Positions 142-8,597 of a stretch of DNA of 54,709 nt are shown here, in pieces. Where the stretch lies: NCBI GenBank assembly GCA_018814445.1, contig JAHIZV010000004.1, positions 1 through 54,709 of the forward strand. The letters run 5' to 3'. The translations under genes were made by a program, and so were the position numbers. Below the pieces are notes generated by a model. It ran no database searches and was not told the DNA's origin. It worked only from the letters and a program-made list of their open reading frames with translations. Each line of letters starts with the position of its first letter. Positions within the stretch are counted from its first letter, which is position 1. Source of the stretch: Verrucomicrobiota bacterium. Its GTDB lineage: Bacteria; Verrucomicrobiota; Kiritimatiellia; JAHIZV01.

Positions 142-3100
142 TTAGAACCCGACTTCAAGGACGGCGACCTCATCAGCGAAGACGCCGGCTTCGCGATATC
201 TTTCCGCCATCGTAGAGACTTCGTACGACGCGCCGTCACTGGAGATGAATACGGCCATGTCCGAATCCGTGTTGAGGCATCTTCCCTCGCCGAGTCGGTC
301 GCTGAAGAACGCGGCGGTATGTTCGAACACTTTCAAAGCATCTCGTGACGTGTGGCCGAGCGCGGGTCTTGGATTGCCGAATTCAAAAATGGACCATTCG
401 GGACTGACTGCTTTGAGCAGGGGATCAAAGGAGGTGCTCATGGCTCTTGCGACAGAGCCTTTCAGGTCCGTGCGGTAATGTTCAGGTAACGCCGCGCCAT
501 GGGCCGGAACGATCAGTATGTCAGCGGCAATCCGGCCGGGATCAAGCCCCTCTGTCATGGCGGTCACTTCAGAGTAATCGAGATCCGAGGGAAGCAGTAT
601 CGCGAAGTTCCCGTATACCACGCGCAGTACGACAGACCCGGAGTCCGGTGCTATTTCCACTACCTCGAACTTCAGTTTCTTCCCGCCGATCTCTTCTTCA
701 AAAAGCACCTGTCCCGGCTCTGCCTGAATGGACTCTGTATCCCATCGCGCCCACCGGTTCATAAGGGATGGATTCCGGGCATCGAGCACGGCGTGTATTG
801 CGCGGATCCACTTGTTCTCCTGATCTGAGCCGGGCGGCAGAACGCACTGATCTACCCGGCAGTGTTTCAGGATATAGCTGATGCCCGCCGCGCGTTCGGG
901 CCGCGGGGAAGTCAGAACCAGGTAATCGAAATGCCGGATTCCCCGGTATGAGAGGAACGGGAGCACTGTTCGCAACGCGCTGTTGTGCCGCCCGCGGACC
1001 TCCTCAACGAATCCCGCATCGACGAGAACGTTCTTTCCCGCCGGCGTCTCAATGAGGATAGAACTGCCGTAACCGACAGAAAGAACGGTGATCTTCAAAT
1101 CCTTGTCCCGTTGGGCAGAAGGCGTGAAAGCAAGAGGAGCGAGGCTGAGCAGCGCCGCGGCAACAACAATCACCGTCGCGCCCTTAGGTCCCTTGAGTCT
1201 TCTTGGTCCCTTCACCTCGCACCACTGTCGGACGCCGCTCCAAAGCGGCTTATGCCAGATGAAAGCCGCACACCATATATAGTAGACGATGAGAAAAGTG
1301 ATCGAGGGCCGACTGACAAACGGATACGGAAAAATCTCTGTGCAGACGTGAGATATCCACAGGAAGAACGCCGAGAAGACCGCGTTTGAAGCGTTCAGCA
1401 CGAGCGCGATGGGGAGCCCGATCACGGGTATAAACCCGATCAGTCCGGCCATAACGCCCAGTTGAACGACCACTCCGATCAGAGGAATCGCAATGAGGTT
1501 GGCATAGGCGCCGGCGAACGGCCATCGCGAGAAGTAGTAGGCGGACAGCGGGAGCATCATCCCTATCTGGATCCCGAATTGCGCCGCCACGAAGGCGCCG
1601 GCGGATGCAGGAACGTCGGAATAACTGATATGGCCAAAGAATCGGACACCTTTATCAGTTAATCGACGGGCGGCCGCGAACAGAAGAGCGGACAGAAGAA
1701 CAAAGGGGATCCAGAATGCCGGAGTTACGAGCAGTGACCACCGGTATATGCCCACGCCGGTCGCGATGGTGACGACCATAATGAACGCGAGAAACGAGTT
1801 TCCCTTCAGGCGGCTCAGGATTTCGTAGAAAGGATCGGTGAGAAGAGCAAGGGAAAGGATCGCGCCGAAAGAAAGCGTGAAAGAGGCATCCACGATCATC
1901 ATCGGGTTCTGCAGGAGAATCAGAAACGCGGCGACAGGAACACCCAGCAGGGCGGAGGAGCGCAGGCCCTGGTCAAGATACGCCCACGTCAGCAGAAAAA
2001 GGCTGTTCATAATGACCGCGCGAAGGGTGGATGGCCGGGCGCCCGTAATGATCGCGAAAACAATGAGGATGAGAATAATCGCGGGAACATACACGCGGCG
2101 CGAGATTCTCATCAGAGAGAAGATGCCCATGAACATGACTGTTATGATCGTCACGTGAAGACCTGAAACAGCCAGCACATGGTTTACGCCCGCGTAACGG
2201 AACTCATCGGTGATCAGATTAGGTGCGCTGTCCTGCCCGGCCCGCGAGAAACCAAAACCGCGCCACGGATACACCGTACTCTGCAGGCCGTAGCGAAGCC
2301 CGAGCGTGACGGCGCCCAGAAAAGCGGACTGTGGATAAGGCATCGTCATCTTGAATACCCGCAGCATTCGGTCGCGTAAGTTGAGCGAGAATTCAACGAG
2401 CGGAATGCCTGAGCGCGGCGCGCCCTGCGGAGGGGAGACAATGTCTATCGGGGCCGGGCCGCCGGGAGCTTCAAAGAGGGAAATGGAGCCGTACACGTTG
2501 TGATTGCGCAGAAACTCGCGCTGGTCGAAACCTCCGGGGTTGGGCGCGGGCCGCGCCGAAGACGCTGATCCGTGGACAACGACATCGTAACCGTAGGCGT
2601 CACTGCGGGCGAAGCGGTCATATCCGCTCATGCCCGGTTTGAGCGTGGCTCGCACTTCTCCGCCCTCCACGCGATAGAACGGCCCGTCGGTCCGGTACTG
2701 AACATAGAGAGGAGTGATCGAGAGGACTGTCTTGAAATCGAATACAACCGGATCGGCAGTGATTCTCCCCAGGATGGTAAGAGGGGTGGAGTCGCGTCCC
2801 GGTCGGATGAATGAGGCTATGTGGTTGGACACCCGGTACAGCGCGACGTTTGCGGAAGAGGGCCCGCCGAGAATCTCTATCTTCTTTACACGGGTGAAGG
2901 GCTGGGGGACGAGGTAGTCCGTTCCCGGGGCATCGTTCTTCGCGAGTGTGATGACCTGGCTTTCCTGTTCCAACCTCACCAGCCGGAACTTCCATCGCCC
3001 CGCTTCGTCTATCTGCGGAACGCCGTCTGCAGACAGCACGGGCACGCGCGCATCAAGCTCCCCTTTCACGACGATCCGCAGATCGTCATCGAGAGCCGCC

Positions 3101-3453
3101 AGGGAGCGGAAACGAATCCGGGACGTATCCGGCAGAGAGACTTCCGGAACATACGACAACAGTCCTTCTCTCATTTGAATCACGCCCAGCCGGGTGTCTT
3201 CGACCGTATTCTCGCTGGTGTAACGGGAATAGCCGAGAAAAAGGGCAGGCAGTATGAGAAGCACCATCGCGAGGGAAGCGGAAGTGGACTTCCGCGAGAA
3301 GAAAGGTCTGATCAGATAGCCGATGAACAAAAGGCCGGCGAGTCCCGTCATACTGTTCAGAATCGGGATATACGCGGGATCAACACGAAGGACTTTGGCG
3401 AGAACGATTCCCACAATGTAGGCGTAGCAGAAGAGAATAACTCTACTTTGCAC
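142..3453 (-). CDS. comEC: ComEC/Rec2-family DNA uptake channel with degenerate MBL domain
   Basis: This is an inner-membrane protein of about 1103 residues with the ComEC layout: N-terminal membrane segments, a soluble DUF4131-like part, a polytopic competence domain (roughly residues 400-720, containing the family-typical NHVLAVSGLHVTII) and a C-terminal metallo-beta-lactamase-like domain from about residue 785. In the family it carries single-stranded DNA across the inner membrane during transformation. The start is taken as GTG at 3453 because AGGAGGAGG lies about 7 nt upstream; this overlaps the preceding small gene by 11 nt. The metal-binding signature is lost: where the family has THPHADH this protein reads TSPRPER (892-912), and the DVGQGD-like motif reads SVGYGS (1060-1080). 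It is the last gene of a nucleic-acid-handling operon. ComEC identity is secure; activity of the C-terminal domain is doubtful. Confidence 0.93.
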   Translation of the reverse strand: MQSRVILFCYAYIVGIVLAKVLRVDPAYIPILNSMTGLAGLLFIGYLIRPFFSRKSTSASLAMVLLILPALFLGYSRYTSENTVEDTRLGVIQMREGLLSYVPEVSLPDTSRIRFRSLAALDDDLRIVVKGELDARVPVLSADGVPQIDEAGRWKFRLVRLEQESQVITLAKNDAPGTDYLVPQPFTRVKKIEILGGPSSANVALYRVSNHIASFIRPGRDSTPLTILGRITADPVVFDFKTVLSITPLYVQYRTDGPFYRVEGGEVRATLKPGMSGYDRFARSDAYGYDVVVHGSASSARPAPNPGGFDQREFLRNHNVYGSISLFEAPGGPAPIDIVSPPQGAPRSGIPLVEFSLNLRDRMLRVFKMTMPYPQSAFLGAVTLGLRYGLQSTVYPWRGFGFSRAGQDSAPNLITDEFRYAGVNHVLAVSGLHVTIITVMFMGIFSLMRISRRVYVPAIILILIVFAIITGARPSTLRAVIMNSLFLLTWAYLDQGLRSSALLGVPVAAFLILLQNPMMIVDASFTLSFGAILSLALLTDPFYEILSRLKGNSFLAFIMVVTIATGVGIYRWSLLVTPAFWIPFVLLSALLFAAARRLTDKGVRFFGHISYSDVPASAGAFVAAQFGIQIGMMLPLSAYYFSRWPFAGAYANLIAIPLIGVVVQLGVMAGLIGFIPVIGLPIALVLNASNAVFSAFFLWISHVCTEIFPYPFVSRPSITFLIVYYIWCAAFIWHKPLWSGVRQWCEVKGPRRLKGPKGATVIVVAAALLSLAPLAFTPSAQRDKDLKITVLSVGYGSSILIETPAGKNVLVDAGFVEEVRGRHNSALRTVLPFLSYRGIRHFDYLVLTSPRPERAAGISYILKHCRVDQCVLPPGSDQENKWIRAIHAVLDARNPSLMNRWARWDTESIQAEPGQVLFEEEIGGKKLKFEVVEIAPDSGSVVLRVVYGNFAILLPSDLDYSEVTAMTEGLDPGRIAADILIVPAHGAALPEHYRTDLKGSVARAMSTSFDPLLKAVSPEWSIFEFGNPRPALGHTSRDALKVFEHTAAFFSDRLGEGRCLNTDSDMAVFISSDGASYEVSTMAERYREAGVFADEVAVLEVGF

Positions 3454-3652
3454 GTGAGTCCTCCTCCTGTTTCTCAAGTCCGACGTTCGGGTAGTAATCC
3501 GTATTTGATTTCCAAATGGGAGAATCTTCCGGCGTCGACTTCAGATGGGCGGCGAACGCGCCTCGATATGCGGGATTGAAGATCATAATCAACGTGCCGA
3601 GGATCACGGCAACGGCCAGAATCACAACGACAGCTTTTGCGCCTCTCTCCAT
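3443..3652 (-). CDS. Small single-pass membrane protein
   Basis: This 69-residue protein has one hydrophobic segment at about residues 7-25 (VVVILAVAVILGTLIMIF) and then a polar, acidic tail rich in Glu, Lys and Asp. I do not recognise the family. It sits between another small membrane protein and comEC. The comEC ribosome-binding site and GTG start lie inside its last codons, so the two are probably translationally coupled. The ATG at 3652 follows GGGGAAAC. Because it is wedged into the operon without gaps it is likely real; its role is unknown, and a small accessory subunit of the neighbouring membrane proteins is only a guess. Confidence 0.6.
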   Translation of the reverse strand: MERGAKAVVVILAVAVILGTLIMIFNPAYRGAFAAHLKSTPEDSPIWKSNTDYYPNVGLEKQEEDSRAK

Positions 3653-3660
3653 GTTTCCCC

Positions 3661-3879
3661 CTATTCCTTCTTGTCCGGATCCTCGTCGCCGTGACTCCGC
3701 AGGCGTTGCATCAGATACAGATAGACGAAGAAGAAGGGCAGGCAGGGAAGGAGGTATAATACGCCTTCCTGCGTGTAGAAAATCTCTCCCGATGCGAATA
3801 CGAGCCAGGCAAGGTATCCGACGAAGCCGATCGTGTTGATCGTCAGAATCGCAATGTCTGTTGTGGTCGCAGGTTTCAT
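3661..3879 (-). CDS. Small two-pass membrane protein
   Basis: This 72-residue protein has two hydrophobic segments (about residues 8-28 and 38-56) and a charged C-terminus ending DEDPDKKE. The family is not recognised. The start at 3879 overlaps the stop of the upstream NERD gene as ATGA, a classic coupling arrangement, which is why I prefer it to the in-frame ATG four codons earlier. The next gene begins 8 nt after its stop. Its membrane location follows from hydrophobicity; no catalytic motif is visible. Confidence 0.6.
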   Translation of the reverse strand: MKPATTTDIAILTINTIGFVGYLAWLVFASGEIFYTQEGVLYLLPCLPFFFVYLYLMQRLRSHGDEDPDKKE

Positions 3880-4631
3880 GCGGGTTCGCAAAGCACAGCA
3901 ATGATTCGGTCTATTTCCTGGTCGGAAAGAATGTTCGGCTGTTCAAAGTGGGCCATGTATTGGATCGCATCCGCGATATTGAGAACCGGAACGGTCCGGT
4001 CTTCAATTGTCCATGTTGCAGAGGGGGAACCCATGACGATGACCGAGTAGATTCTCTCTTCCTGAATTCCATGCAAAGAGAGGAATCCCTTCAGAACTTC
4101 CATATGCCGGTCGTTCTGCAGTATCGGGTTGGACAGACTGACAGGTTTTCCTCCCGCGTCTTTGACCTGCAACCATCTCTCGCCCCGCTCACTTCCGCTG
4201 AGATGCCCTCGCCAGTTCTTCGTTTCCAGTACGAAGATCCCGGCAGGAGACACGACAAGATGGTCGATCTGTGCTTTGTGCCTTCGATGCGCAACAGAGA
4301 CGTCGTTCAGCAGATACGTATCATTTCCGAATGCGTCATTGAGCATTCTCGTGACTTTGAGTTCTCCACTTCGGCCGGCGCCCACCATTCCTCGCTCCCT
4401 CGTTCCTTCTCTGATGCGGAGCATGTGCCCGATGAAGACAAATGCCGCAAAGCCCCCGATCCAGAGGAGCGCGGGCGATGATGAGGTGAAGAAAACCGCG
4501 ATCCCGGCAAGCAGTAGCACTGCGGCGAGCGCCGCCTCGACGTACAGGATACGGCTGAGGACCCGCTCTTCCTTCACAAGAGCTTTCTGTTTCTTATCGA
4601 GTGAAGTCTCGTCAGTCAGAATGCGCGCCAT
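3876..4631 (-). CDS. Membrane-anchored NERD-domain protein
   Basis: This 251-residue protein starts with a charged N-terminus, then two adjacent hydrophobic segments (about residues 30-50 and 54-71), then a nuclease-related NERD domain at about residues 85-200. The domain shows the family pattern: GELKV near the start, YLLNDV, then QIDHLVVSPAGIFVLETKNW, where the Asp and the E-x-K triad correspond to the predicted restriction-endonuclease-like active site. NERD domains are predicted nucleases and few have been tested. The gene is 16 nt downstream of the triple-TRAM gene and overlaps the next small gene by 4 nt. The domain call is firm; nuclease activity and substrate are inferred from the fold. 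Confidence 0.85.
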   Translation of the reverse strand: MARILTDETSLDKKQKALVKEERVLSRILYVEAALAAVLLLAGIAVFFTSSSPALLWIGGFAAFVFIGHMLRIREGTRERGMVGAGRSGELKVTRMLNDAFGNDTYLLNDVSVAHRRHKAQIDHLVVSPAGIFVLETKNWRGHLSGSERGERWLQVKDAGGKPVSLSNPILQNDRHMEVLKGFLSLHGIQEERIYSVIVMGSPSATWTIEDRTVPVLNIADAIQYMAHFEQPNILSDQEIDRIIAVLCEPA

Positions 4632-4647
4632 GAGTTTACGCCCTCGA

Positions 4648-5547
4648 CTACAGATCGGTCCTTTCCGCCCGCGCGAAGCGATCCCGACGCTCGGTGATTA
4701 CAATCGAACACCGGTCGCCCGGCTGAGAATTCGGCACAAAGACCACCAGTCCGTCGATGCGCGCGACACCGTCCGTGTCCGGCTTCTTCCTGTCCTTCTC
4801 CGTGATTTCCACGTCGAACCGTGCGCCGGCCTTCACCTCGGACGATGAATCCGGGACGGCCTCAAGAAGAGGTGTTTCCGTGAAAGGCTCGGACTCGGTG
4901 GACTGATCGTAGAACGTGACCACTTCGCCGCGGGCGAACTTCGGCAGGTCTTCGACAACCCGAAAAGAGACATCTTCTCCCACCTGAACGCCCGGAACGA
5001 AGACGACCTTTCCGCCAACGTGAACGATCCCGTCGCCCTTCTTTCCAATATCGCCTACTCGCCCGCGGTATGTCTTTCCGACTTCGACAGGAGAGGGGCG
5101 GGATCCCTCCCGCTCCCTCTTCGGCATTTCAGCGGGATCGACTCTGGAAACGTGCTCAACGACCGCGGCCTCGGCCGAAGACTTCTTCTTCCGCGTCACC
5201 TCGATAATCACGACTTCACCTGGCTCAGCGCCCGACACGAAGGTGATCAGGCCGCCGATCTTCGCGATACCCGCGGTTCCTTCCGTGGCCGCATCTTCGA
5301 TGAGAACTTTGTAGCGATGCCCCTCTTCTACTTCGAAGTGTCCGCCTCCTGTCGCATCAATGATCTCTCCTTTATAGACATCGACCGCCCCGGGCTCACT
5401 GTCCGTAACCCGCTCGATAATAACCTCAGGCGCGCGGGCACGAGGTCTGAGAATCAGGGCGGCGACGAGAGCCGTAGCCAGAACTGCGATCGCTATCACC
5501 AGGAACGGTGAAATACGGGCAAAGGATGGTTTCTTATCTTCTGTCAT
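4648..5547 (-). CDS. Membrane-anchored protein with three TRAM-like domains
   Basis: This 299-residue protein has one N-terminal membrane anchor (about residues 13-33) followed by three repeats of a beta-rich module at roughly residues 55-120, 152-205 and 235-290. Each repeat has the TRAM signature, a short GxA/GxV strand, then I/V-x-G-L/K-V-x-FVP and a PGE/VGE/PGD turn (VSGAEPGEVV, VPGVQVGEDV, VPNSQPGDRC). TRAM domains are small OB-like RNA-binding modules normally fused to tRNA-modifying enzymes such as MiaB and TrmA/RumA; no such catalytic domain is present. The topology suggests that the three modules lie on one side of the membrane. The ATG at 5547 is preceded by GGGGAGAAAC. It may be a nucleic-acid-holding component of this nuclease/uptake operon, which is inference from context. 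Confidence 0.75.
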   Translation of the reverse strand: MTEDKKPSFARISPFLVIAIAVLATALVAALILRPRARAPEVIIERVTDSEPGAVDVYKGEIIDATGGGHFEVEEGHRYKVLIEDAATEGTAGIAKIGGLITFVSGAEPGEVVIIEVTRKKKSSAEAAVVEHVSRVDPAEMPKREREGSRPSPVEVGKTYRGRVGDIGKKGDGIVHVGGKVVFVPGVQVGEDVSFRVVEDLPKFARGEVVTFYDQSTESEPFTETPLLEAVPDSSSEVKAGARFDVEITEKDRKKPDTDGVARIDGLVVFVPNSQPGDRCSIVITERRDRFARAERTDL

Positions 5548-5576
5548 CAGGTTTCTCCCCGGTTAATCGACACCTG

Positions 5577-6392
5577 TTATTGAATGCCAAGATCGGTACG
5601 GCGGCACTGTGCTTCATAGAATCGGTCTCCCGTAGTTGATTCGAAGCGAACACGAACCATAGAAGGATCTGTTCCTTCTCCGCGAAGTCCGACGTGTTCT
5701 CCTTTTCTCAGGAAGCGAACCTGTTTGGTCGGATCTATAAGAGAGAAGATGGGAATGGTGTCAGGAGAAGATATCACATCGCCGCCAAGCTCGCTGGAGT
5801 ACTTCGGTTTCGCCGGGGTGTCGGGAAGCGCGAGCTTTCCGCCCCACGCGCCCCGCTTGTGTTTCTTTGCCTTTCTTTCCAACTCTACCAGGTGCTGGAA
5901 CACGGCATTCGCGTCTTTTCCGTCGGGTCGGGGAGCGCGGGCTCCGTACACTCTCGCGAGGCCCGCCTCGACGATCATGTCGCTGAGATAGCCTTCGTCC
6001 GTCTCGACAAAGGCGAAGTTACGCTTGTAACGACTGGCTCCCTGCGCATCCACCCAGCGTGTATGCACTGTGAACGATTTGCCCTTGAGTTTGTCGGCAA
6101 GAAAGCGGGCGGCGTCTTTGCCGTAGCGGGGGATATCGCTTTCGCGAATGCCCCAGTATGCAGCCTGATTCTTGATCCGCTCGTCGAGAGTGGTGTCGGT
6201 TTCAGGCGTATCCACAAAATAGAGCCGGAAGATGTACTTCTTGCCTTTATGGAGTGCATGAAAGCTGTCCCCGTCATAGTACTCCGACTGAAGAAAGCGA
6301 CAGTTTTCCAGGGACTCCGTCTCTCTGTCGGCGAGCGCGCCGACCACGCCGAACGCGAGAAACAGCGAGCTGATCACCAAAACCCTGAACAT
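5577..6392 (-). CDS. Exported thermonuclease (SNase-like) family protein
   Basis: This is a protein of about 271 residues with a signal peptide (MFRVLVISSLFLAFGVVGALA) and a staphylococcal-nuclease-like domain. The catalytic pattern matches the family: DGDS near residue 40, FRLYFVDTPET (equivalents of Arg35, Asp40 and Glu43 of micrococcal nuclease) and a later Arg in RYKRNFAFV (Arg87 equivalent). About 80 residues follow the nuclease core and end in an SH3-like beta segment. The start at 6392 is chosen because it gives the signal peptide and follows GGGGGAAGATA. Family members are secreted Ca2+-dependent nucleases acting on DNA and RNA. The gene lies 17 nt from xth and 29 nt from the TRAM gene, in the same direction as comEC, so it may cut extracellular or periplasmic DNA before uptake. 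Confidence 0.85.
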   Translation of the reverse strand: MFRVLVISSLFLAFGVVGALADRETESLENCRFLQSEYYDGDSFHALHKGKKYIFRLYFVDTPETDTTLDERIKNQAAYWGIRESDIPRYGKDAARFLADKLKGKSFTVHTRWVDAQGASRYKRNFAFVETDEGYLSDMIVEAGLARVYGARAPRPDGKDANAVFQHLVELERKAKKHKRGAWGGKLALPDTPAKPKYSSELGGDVISSPDTIPIFSLIDPTKQVRFLRKGEHVGLRGEGTDPSMVRVRFESTTGDRFYEAQCRRTDLGIQ

Positions 6393-6409
6393 TATCTTCC
6401 CCCTATGAT

Positions 6410-7186
6410 CTACAAGTCGAACTCGGCCACCAGAAACGTGTGATCTGATGGTTTCTCCAGCAGGCGCGGCTCTACGTCGATGACAGCATCCGTGCATTTT
6501 TCGGTCAGTGCCGGAGTAGTGAATATGTAGTCGATTCTCCATCCGAGCCCGCGCTTGGCCGCGTTGGGCGTGCGGTAATCAAAGAAAGTAAACTGTCCCG
6601 GCTCTGGATGGTGTTTCCGCAGAACGTCCTCAAATCCCCAGGCGATGCAGCTCTCAAAAGCCTTGCGGGCATCCGCGTGAAAGCAAACGTGCAATTCCCG
6701 CTCGGATGGATTGTGGACATCGTCAGGCGTGCGCGCGACGTTCATATCGCCCGTCCACAGCAGGAGATCATCCTTCTCGAAGCCCTGGGTGAAATAGTTG
6801 GTGAGCCGTTCGAACCAGCGGAGTTTGTATTGAAACATCTCATGGTCCACCTCGCGCCCCTGCGGCACGTATGTGTTGACGATGTGCAACGGGCCGAAGG
6901 ATGCATGCATCAGGCGCGTGTCATCGACCGGACCTGCATCGAGAAAACCGCATTGAACGGAATCCGGAATGTCCTTCGAAATAATCGCTACCCCGTTGTA
7001 AGCCTTCTGCCCCCTGAATGAAACGTGATAGCCGGCGTCTTCATAGGGCGCCATGGGGAAATCCTGATCCTGCACTTTTGTTTCCTGGATACACAGAATG
7101 TCCGGATCATGCCGGCGCATCCAATCCAGTATGATGCCTTCGCGCGACCGGATTGAATTGGCATTGAACGTGGCGATTTTCTTCAT
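6410..7186 (-). CDS. xth: Exodeoxyribonuclease III (AP endonuclease)
   Basis: This 258-residue protein belongs to the exonuclease III / endonuclease-exonuclease-phosphatase superfamily, which acts in the cytoplasm as AP endonuclease and 3'-5' exonuclease in base excision repair. It starts MKKIATFNANSIRSR and shows LCIQETKVQD (metal-binding Glu), YNGVAIIS, LWTGDMNVA (Asp and Asn of the active site), WRIDYIFTT and the terminal SDHTFLVAEF with the catalytic Asp-His. The start at 7186 is the family-typical one; 44 upstream codons in frame look non-coding. It is the first gene of the run that ends in comEC, and no other gene is nearby upstream, so the operon promoter should lie just above 7190. 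Confidence 0.95.
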   Translation of the reverse strand: MKKIATFNANSIRSREGIILDWMRRHDPDILCIQETKVQDQDFPMAPYEDAGYHVSFRGQKAYNGVAIISKDIPDSVQCGFLDAGPVDDTRLMHASFGPLHIVNTYVPQGREVDHEMFQYKLRWFERLTNYFTQGFEKDDLLLWTGDMNVARTPDDVHNPSERELHVCFHADARKAFESCIAWGFEDVLRKHHPEPGQFTFFDYRTPNAAKRGLGWRIDYIFTTPALTEKCTDAVIDVEPRLLEKPSDHTFLVAEFDL

Positions 7187-7611
7187 AGCAAATAAGCAGA
7201 TGGCCCGAGCTGTAAAGACGTACAGCAGGCTACAGAAACAGGCGTCACTAGACCAGTCTCTTTGTGCCCGCCCGGGGCTGTGTGCGGAATGTTCCGCAAA
7301 TTCTAAGTCCAGAATCACCGTGAAGGGGGGCGAGTAAGCAGGTCGTTTAAGTGAATCCGTTTAAGAAGGCGAGTAAGAATCCGTTTAACTGTGCGCTACG
7401 TGCTTCTGCACACTTAAACCCCTTCTTAAACGGCCCACTTACTCCACCTGCATACTCGTCTCCGTGCATACGTCGATCCCTCAGTCCGCGTGAGAGAAAC
7501 AAAGTGAAATTGCAGAAGACTCGGGACATGATCCGCGATGCGAGGTGGCGACACGTTCAGGACTGAGTGATGGTTCAACGATCTCGCGGAAGCCAGCCGA
7601 TTGTTGGGTGC
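7187..7611. other. Non-coding stretch with short palindrome and repeats
   Basis: I see no credible gene here. It should hold the promoter of the xth-comEC operon on the minus strand. It contains a near-perfect palindrome (TGCGGAA, 2-nt spacer, TTCCGCA at 7283-7298) and the repeat cluster described separately. Short open frames are composed of the repeats and have no family resemblance. Confidence 0.5.
7331..7445. repeat. Nested direct and inverted repeats (CGAGTAAG / CCGTTTAAGAAGG)
   Basis: CGAGTAAG occurs at 7331 and 7370, and CGTTTAA occurs three times (from 7344, 7358 and 7382). CCGTTTAAGAAGG at 7357-7369 is exactly inverted at 7421-7433, with 51 bp between the arms. The inverted copy is followed by CCACTTACT, which resembles the complement of AGTAAGTGG. 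The block could fold into a large stem-loop or be the remnant of a small mobile or recombination site. No function is known to me. Confidence 0.5.
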
Positions 7612-7981: not shown

Positions 7982-8362
7982 CTATATTCCTATATTACTT
8001 CCGTATTTCAGATGCTCCTCCTTGACTTTCAAGGTCTTGCTCAAGCGCTTGGCCATGGCGTCGGAATATGTGCGACGTCCGCGTTCGTAGTCACTGACCA
8101 TGTTTTGGCGGATGCCCAGTTCTTCTGCAAGCTGAGCTTGGGTGAGCCCTGCCTTCAGGCGAGCACCTGCAAGGAGATTGCCGACACGGTTTTTCTCCAT
8201 CTCACTCCAGTATTCTGTACTTTCGATGGATACAAACTGCTCGTCGGGCTCTTCCGCCAAAATGGCGACATCGTATTTCTTCCGGATCCAAGCAACCAGT
8301 TCCGCAACATGATCGCCATGAATCGAAAGCTCAATATGGGGCTTTTTCACGAGAGCCAACAT
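7982..8362 (-). CDS. XRE-type helix-turn-helix antitoxin
   Basis: This 126-residue protein has a C-terminal helix-turn-helix of the XRE/HigA type at about residues 63-118 (AGLTQAQLAEELGIRQ followed by MVSDYERGRR) and an N-terminal segment of about 60 residues that probably contacts the toxin. It follows the toxin gene with a 32-nt overlap. In such modules the antitoxin neutralises the toxin and represses the shared promoter; a 12-bp palindrome inside that promoter (8613-8624) is a fitting operator. The start at 8362 is the first ATG; a GTG three codons later is also possible. The assignment rests on the HTH and the gene order. Confidence 0.8.
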   Translation of the reverse strand: MLALVKKPHIELSIHGDHVAELVAWIRKKYDVAILAEEPDEQFVSIESTEYWSEMEKNRVGNLLAGARLKAGLTQAQLAEELGIRQNMVSDYERGRRTYSDAMAKRLSKTLKVKEEHLKYGSNIGI

Positions 8363-8597
8363 AATACACCTCGATAACTATCTCGTCTTTTCGACATGTC
8401 CAGCATGCCACATACCGGTAATTCAAATGGCAGTGATACCGATCCTGCCCCAGTGGCGAGAAATTTCGCCATGTCTTCTGAATGGGGCCGTCTGCGTGAA
8501 GATCCGCGATAAGTAAGAAGAGAAGCTTCTGAACATCGGAAGGCAGCTTCCGCAGCCCTCGCTCAACCTTCTTCCTGATCCGGACCTCACACTTCAT
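8331..8597 (-). CDS. RelE/HigB-like toxin of a type II toxin-antitoxin module
   Basis: This 88-residue basic protein has the size and feel of RelE/ParE-superfamily toxins: a helical start with KKVERGLRKLPSDVQ, a central strand region, then YRYVACWTCRKDEIVIEVYYVGSREKAPY, matching the terminal beta-sheet and the family's conserved basic residues. Such toxins usually cleave ribosome-bound mRNA, although ParE relatives inhibit gyrase; the sequence alone does not decide. The gene precedes and overlaps its antitoxin, the HigBA-type order. A promoter with -10 at 8607-8612 leaves almost no 5' untranslated region. Confidence 0.8.
   Translation of the reverse strand: MKCEVRIRKKVERGLRKLPSDVQKLLFLLIADLHADGPIQKTWRNFSPLGQDRYHCHLNYRYVACWTCRKDEIVIEVYYVGSREKAPY

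Follow-up and report, generated by a model that had tools for sequence, protein, structure and literature searches.

The subject of this analysis is a gene cassette ending in comEC in a bacterium of the class Kiritimatiellia (Verrucomicrobiota). The window, meaning the whole stretch of 54,709 nucleotides that was analysed, is an entire contig (C235) of a 4.06 Mb genome that is 95% complete. Seven tightly packed genes follow one another on its minus strand in the order xth, SNase, TRAM, NERD, sm1, sm2 and comEC, the last encoding a protein that we refer to as ComEC2. The intergenic spacings from xth to comEC are 17, 29, 16, -4, 8 and -11 nt (Table 1). The first-pass annotation had described seven closely spaced genes on a single strand, and its coordinates and gene order were correct, with spacings ranging from -11 to 29 nt. 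This packing exceeds chance, as the last five genes hold their order and spacing in many families. Promoter-like and terminator-like sites in the locus showed no excess over shuffled expectation. The contig ends 141 bp past the comEC stop codon, so the downstream neighbour cannot be judged here; in relatives, no conserved gene was found 3' of comEC, and the recurrent matches in that position were antisense frames of comEC.

We searched 57 genomes for TRAM and ComEC and compared the fetched regions using tblastn and placement of hidden Markov model (HMM) matches. TRAM and a long ComEC (1100-1200 aa) were located approximately 1.2 kb apart in most carriers. The order TRAM-NERD-sm1-sm2-ComEC was kept in loci from families f5, f8, f9, f12 and f21 (tblastn), with core proteins that are approximately 30-50% identical between families and a 4-nt overlap of nerd and sm1 that is common. 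A complete five-gene core was found in approximately 18 named Kiritimatiellia loci from public metagenome-assembled genomes (MAGs), and the core is present in at least six families, including the window's own. Matches to the sm1 HMM in relatives had E-values of 1e-25 to 1e-32, and the protein has the conserved pattern NTxG..W..GVLYLLPCLPFFFV (alignment A3). The f21 loci have the core order plus additional TRAM and NERD copies. An enlarged cassette (NERD-TRAM-NERD-sm1-sm2-ComEC2-TRAM) was observed at two loci (L071, from genome G022, and L157). Neither xth nor SNase was found beside the core in any of the 77 named loci or in the other loci fetched from relatives; SNase homologues are present in 21 of 55 genomes, though outside the cassettes of relatives. 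The seven genes were therefore rejected as a conserved unit, since xth and SNase adjoin the core in the window genome only. The cassette consists of a five-gene conserved core and two local genes (xth and SNase). Conservation of the neighbourhood in relatives, which the first-pass annotation had named as the check on its seven-gene operon, thus held for TRAM-NERD-sm1-sm2-ComEC and failed for the two genes upstream.

The window ComEC2 contains the Competence channel domain (PF03772; 126.1 bits against a cut-off of 23). It scores below the TIGR00361 equivalog cut-off (105.5 bits against 190.05) and, for the N-terminal OB fold, below the DUF4131 cut-off (25.4 bits against 31.6). Its AlphaFold2 model has a strand-rich domain at about positions 87-340, and a ComEC chain from the PDB (9iew, 124 aa) aligns to positions 225-335 of the family profile (5e-6). 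A second PDB ComEC, 30bt, matched the ComEC2 family profile at 2e-51. An ordinary comEC is carried on contig C38 of the window genome (G000) as well. In a tree of the channel region, the ComEC sequences of the cassettes (L), of a sister paralog that is a second Kiritimatiellia ComEC of about 930 aa (X), and of other phyla (R) formed one clade (support 100/99-100), separate from the ordinary ComEC of the same genomes. This clade is long-branched, with a stem of about 1.8-2.9 changes per site; the ordinary copies are long-branched too, so the branching order among them is unsure. Ordinary ComEC co-occurred in 10 of the 12 genomes carrying a member of the ComEC2 clade. A single ComEC-like gene has been reported in 96% of genomes (PMC6299819). 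By its placement in the tree, the window ComEC is distinct from the genome's ordinary ComEC and belongs to a separate clade, ComEC2.

The metallo-beta-lactamase (MBL) fold is kept in the AlphaFold2 model of the window ComEC2 (pLDDT 82), the best PDB fold match of which was 9ic4, the MBL domain of Moorella ComEC. The window protein has TSPRPER where THPDADH is expected, and HMM alignment to PDB ComEC pairs H598 with S, D600 with R, D602 with E and H603 with R of this stretch. Across 87 ComEC2 sequences (X paralogs excluded), the H598 position is histidine in one row (two are gapped) and serine in 64, the D602 position is glutamate in 72, and the HxHxDH motif is absent from every sequence. Alanine substitutions at H598, D602, H603 and D700 leave almost no enzyme activity, and in Legionella the corresponding changes abolish transformation (PMC12455585). 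Judging from the aligned residues, the MBL domain of ComEC2 has lost its nuclease motif and has a degenerate metal site. The conserved S..PER suggests that a non-catalytic role is retained. The five-gene set would work like a ComEC uptake system, yet it misses hallmarks of ComEC/Rec2, namely a catalytic MBL domain, a score above the TIGR00361 cut-off and the status of ordinary copy. The label competence operon, which appears in the first-pass annotation, calls for revision: this ComEC is a second, divergent copy with a degenerate MBL domain, the ordinary comEC being elsewhere.

The small protein sm2 (approximately 69 aa) has a conserved SPIWxSNxxYYP motif that includes an invariant S-N-x-x-Y-Y segment (alignment A2). 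A short-profile search of 346 genomes of the class returned strong sm2 matches in f1, f5, f8, f9, f12, f21 and f26, and a weaker match in f38. Weak matches were also observed in other classes of the phylum (G427, G435, G522, G529, G547 and G578; E-values of 3e-5 to 7e-4). A profile built from Kiritimatiellia only identified open reading frames of approximately 50-110 aa immediately 5' of the ComEC2 gene in further phyla, with E-values down to 2e-10; the carriers are Riflebacteria, CSSED10-310, Elusimicrobia, Mcinerneyibacteriota and a record labelled Methylomirabilis. The sm2 profile also matched the final part of a 630-aa protein encoded immediately upstream of ComEC-X in all seven cases examined. 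A widened profile, whose E-values are not independent as it was built with some of these hits, gave no matches in 21 ordinary comEC loci.

From the motifs and folds of the neighbouring proteins, nuclease genes accompany ComEC2 and their kind differs by lineage. The NERD protein of the window has intact nuclease-motif residues (QIDH...ETKNW), and in the NERD alignment (A4) D123 is invariant and E136 and K138 are nearly so, in agreement with D...ExK. The 630-aa partner of ComEC-X contains a conserved GGD-x-DT...FEDHHP...DGGH (alignment A6). It had no DHH match in Pfam or NCBIfam, and a profile of this partner had no match among PDB sequences; the top eight fold matches of its model all belong to the DHH superfamily (RecJ, NrnA and family II pyrophosphatase). 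Together, the motifs and fold matches point to a DHH enzyme. At 12 loci outside Kiritimatiellia, ComEC2 is followed by a ComEA-like helix-hairpin-helix (HhH) protein and a separate MBL protein with an intact HxHxDH, a partnering found in Riflebacteria and CSSED10-310. One of these loci (L187), labelled Methylomirabilis, clusters with Riflebacteria and may be misbinned. In one Elusimicrobia locus (L173), ComEC2 is followed by a transmembrane (TM) protein of the PD-(D/E)XK type (Cas4-like). A degenerate separate MBL was observed farther downstream of the Cas4-like protein.

Charge balance predicts that the catalytic domains of NERD and DHH are cytoplasmic and that the DHH tail is outside; the signal is weak for TRAM and sm2. 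A ComEA gene was not detected in the window genome by HHH_3 match, although a missing contig could hide one. HHH_3 matches in three other genomes (G011, G016 and G017) adjoin an SNase domain in open frames of approximately 300 aa, and so are not plain ComEA.

Table 1. Coordinates of the cassette genes and of related and neighbouring features.
Feature	Location	Strand	Evidence and remarks
xth, exodeoxyribonuclease III	7186-6410	-	TIGR00195 (NCBIfam ExoIII), 279.7 bits against cut-off 182.6; accessory
SNase-like nuclease, predicted secreted	6392-5577	-	Hydrophobic N-terminus; Pfam SNase 4.1e-10; D..R..DTPE..R residues visible; accessory
Triple-TRAM protein, N-terminal TM	5547-4648	-	Pfam TRAM x3; NCBIfam PyTRAM 125.9 bits against cut-off 85; alignment A5
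NERD protein, two predicted TM near N-terminus	4631-3876	-	PF08378, 3.6e-25; alignment A4
sm1, 72 aa, two TM	3879-3661	-	Overlaps NERD by 4 nt; alignment A3
sm2, 69 aa, single TM	3652-3443	-	Overlaps comEC by 11 nt; alignment A2
comEC (ComEC2)	3453-142	-	GTG start at 3453; putative OB-like, Competence and degenerate MBL domains
ComEC-X directly after DHH-type protein	L082, L084, L086-L091, L193, L194, L198, L199		DHH-type protein with C-terminal TM and sm2-like tail
ComEC2 with ComEA-like HhH and separate intact MBL	L178-L181, L183, L185-L187, L192, L196, L175, L167		Most with sm2
PD-(D/E)XK (Cas4-like) protein after ComEC2	L173:10844-11434		Elusimicrobia
CDF insertion, family f26	L136:6863-7741; also L143, L152, L159		PF01545 between sm1 and sm2
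Ordinary ComEC of window genome	L083:8468-10846		Equals G000:C38
EndA/ComEA-like fusion, SNase and HhH in one frame	G011:C8:227033-227827; G016:C216; G017:C194		Side observation
Small ORF overlapping HTH regulator, upstream of xth	7982-8597		Resembles HigBA/RelBE-type toxin-antitoxin (HTH matched by Pfam; toxin judged by eye alone)
Short repeats between xth and HTH gene	7340-7440		gtttaagaagg and its complement

The likeliest reading is that the core imports DNA by way of a second ComEC paralog, with nucleolysis provided in trans, and probably serves to scavenge extracellular DNA; we judge this reading about equally likely to be right or wrong. Its sequence-level basis is the conservation of the cassette, the separate clade, the loss of the MBL motif, the intact NERD motif and the co-occurrence of sm2, and we infer DNA transport, docking of sm2, topology and a nutritional purpose. 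DNA scavenging or uptake had been suggested in the first-pass annotation and stays our best guess, with added weight from the same ComEC clade sitting with ComEA and an intact MBL in other phyla. ComEC2 would be an inner-membrane channel passing one DNA strand, and its MBL domain, with the metal site gone, would persist in a structural or guiding role. A small companion integral to the membrane, sm2 would dock on ComEC2 through its periplasmic SN..YYP segment. The nucleolytic step would fall to a separate periplasmic MBL with a ComEA receptor in Riflebacteria and CSSED10-310, to a DHH (RecJ/NrnA-like) protein bearing an sm2 tail for paralog X, and to a NERD protein anchored in the membrane for the window genome's L cassette. 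The TRAM repeats would bind nucleic acid and, at a guess, may stand in for ComEA. Since the predicted orientation of NERD is cytoplasmic, imported DNA would be cut on arrival, which favours scavenging over transformation; taken together with the ExoIII and predicted secreted SNase of the window genome, this makes extracellular DNA scavenging a coherent reading.

A wider version, which we regard as possible and somewhat doubtful, is that a cross-phylum family of second ComEC proteins has shed its internal nuclease and relies on interchangeable nucleases in trans (separate MBL, NERD, DHH/RecJ-like and perhaps Cas4-like PD-(D/E)XK), with sm2 as a near-universal TM partner of 50-70 residues that docks on it. 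The Kiritimatiellia version would then take up DNA for nutrition and degrade it at the inner membrane face, with TRAM replacing ComEA.

Several observations weigh against these proposals. Ordinary Kiritimatiellia ComEC likewise lacks HxHxDH (the copy on C38 and those at L062-L064), so loss of the motif is not unique to ComEC2. The predicted cytoplasmic location of NERD and DHH means that they are no simple substitute for a periplasmic MBL degrading the non-transported strand, and the idea of NERD as its plain replacement is weakened accordingly. The fold matches of the DHH partner to RecJ/NrnA have probabilities of 0.85-0.99, with a best E-value of only 7e-3, and the confidence of its model is modest (pLDDT 64). 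The better-known associations of TRAM domains are with RNA. Family f26 deviates from the core order, having a cation-efflux (CDF) gene rather than NERD between sm1 and sm2; in the single f26 genome inspected, a separate contig carries TRAM and two NERD genes. Finally, nearly all of the genomes compared are MAGs.

A rather unlikely alternative is that the cassette is a true transformation machine, in which ComEC2 imports a strand for DprA/RecA recombination and NERD or DHH confines its trimming or degradation to the discarded strand or to excess DNA. The company of ComEA and an intact MBL that the same ComEC clade keeps in other phyla is consistent with this. The window genome also encodes DprA and PilT-like ATPases, although both are widespread and unlinked to the cassette. 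A cytoplasm-facing nuclease beside the channel would, however, attack the incoming strand, and an ordinary ComEC is present besides ComEC2. We consider it improbable that ComEC2 and NERD form a barrier that destroys DNA (phage or plasmid) crossing the envelope. The NERD profile also resembles the kinases PglW and MADS6, which belong to defence systems, but these matches are far under the family cut-offs and cover the NERD domain only, and PADLOC models match the NERD and SNase domains partially, with none for TRAM, sm1, sm2 or ComEC2. Furthermore, sm2, the marker of the cassette, occurs in the majority of the members listed for f26, f12 and similar families, unlike defence islands, which are usually patchy in distribution. 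The loss of the MBL active site and the divergence of the channel (the long stem of the clade) would also be expected if ComEC2 carried a non-DNA substrate, or exported, with the nucleic-acid genes as bystanders. This is a similarly improbable reading, as the recurrent partners across phyla (ComEA, MBL, NERD, PD-(D/E)XK, DHH and TRAM) are all nucleic-acid proteins. That the gene is simply an ordinary comEC amid chance neighbours is very improbable and largely refuted by synteny, for although xth and SNase are truly not conserved, the five-gene core is shared across families and the gene is a second paralog.

ComEC2 shares the order of Competence, putative OB-like and MBL-fold domains with ComEC/Rec2 of B. 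subtilis, L. pneumophila and Moorella, and differs in lacking the metal-binding HxHxDH, in its length (approximately 1100 aa), in being a second genomic copy and in its location within a TRAM-NERD-sm1-sm2 cassette. In pneumococcal ComEC, too, the MBL ligands are altered (PMC8579336). In S. pneumoniae the strand-degrading nuclease, EndA, is encoded apart from ComEC, as with ComEC2; EndA is an unrelated extracellular endonuclease, whereas the NERD, DHH or MBL partner of ComEC2 co-travels in the comEC operon. The cassette NERD shares the D...ExK residues and a membrane anchor with other NERD-domain proteins (PF08378), but is without a kinase or helicase fusion and is fixed before sm1-sm2-ComEC2. 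The TRAM domains score above the NCBIfam cut-off for TRAM RNA chaperones (PyTRAM, NF053605); unlike in PyTRAM, a TM helix precedes three repeats in the cassette protein, whose gene lies within a comEC cassette. The ComEC-X partner shares the DHH and GGH motifs and its closest folds with the RecJ/NrnA phosphoesterases, and is set apart by its C-terminal TM and sm2-type tail and its position directly upstream of ComEC-X. Nothing of this kind came up when the open-access literature was searched for comEC with NERD, second comEC genes and small partners.

The known MBL nuclease domain is missing from nearly half of ComEC proteins, and how the non-transported strand is degraded in those cases is a stated open question (PMC8579336). 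ComEC2 loci offer concrete candidates for channel-adjacent nucleases, and a tiny conserved partner, with which to approach it. In contrast to the single ComEC-like gene reported for most genomes (PMC6299819), many genomes may hold two ComEC channels, possibly one for food and one for genes.

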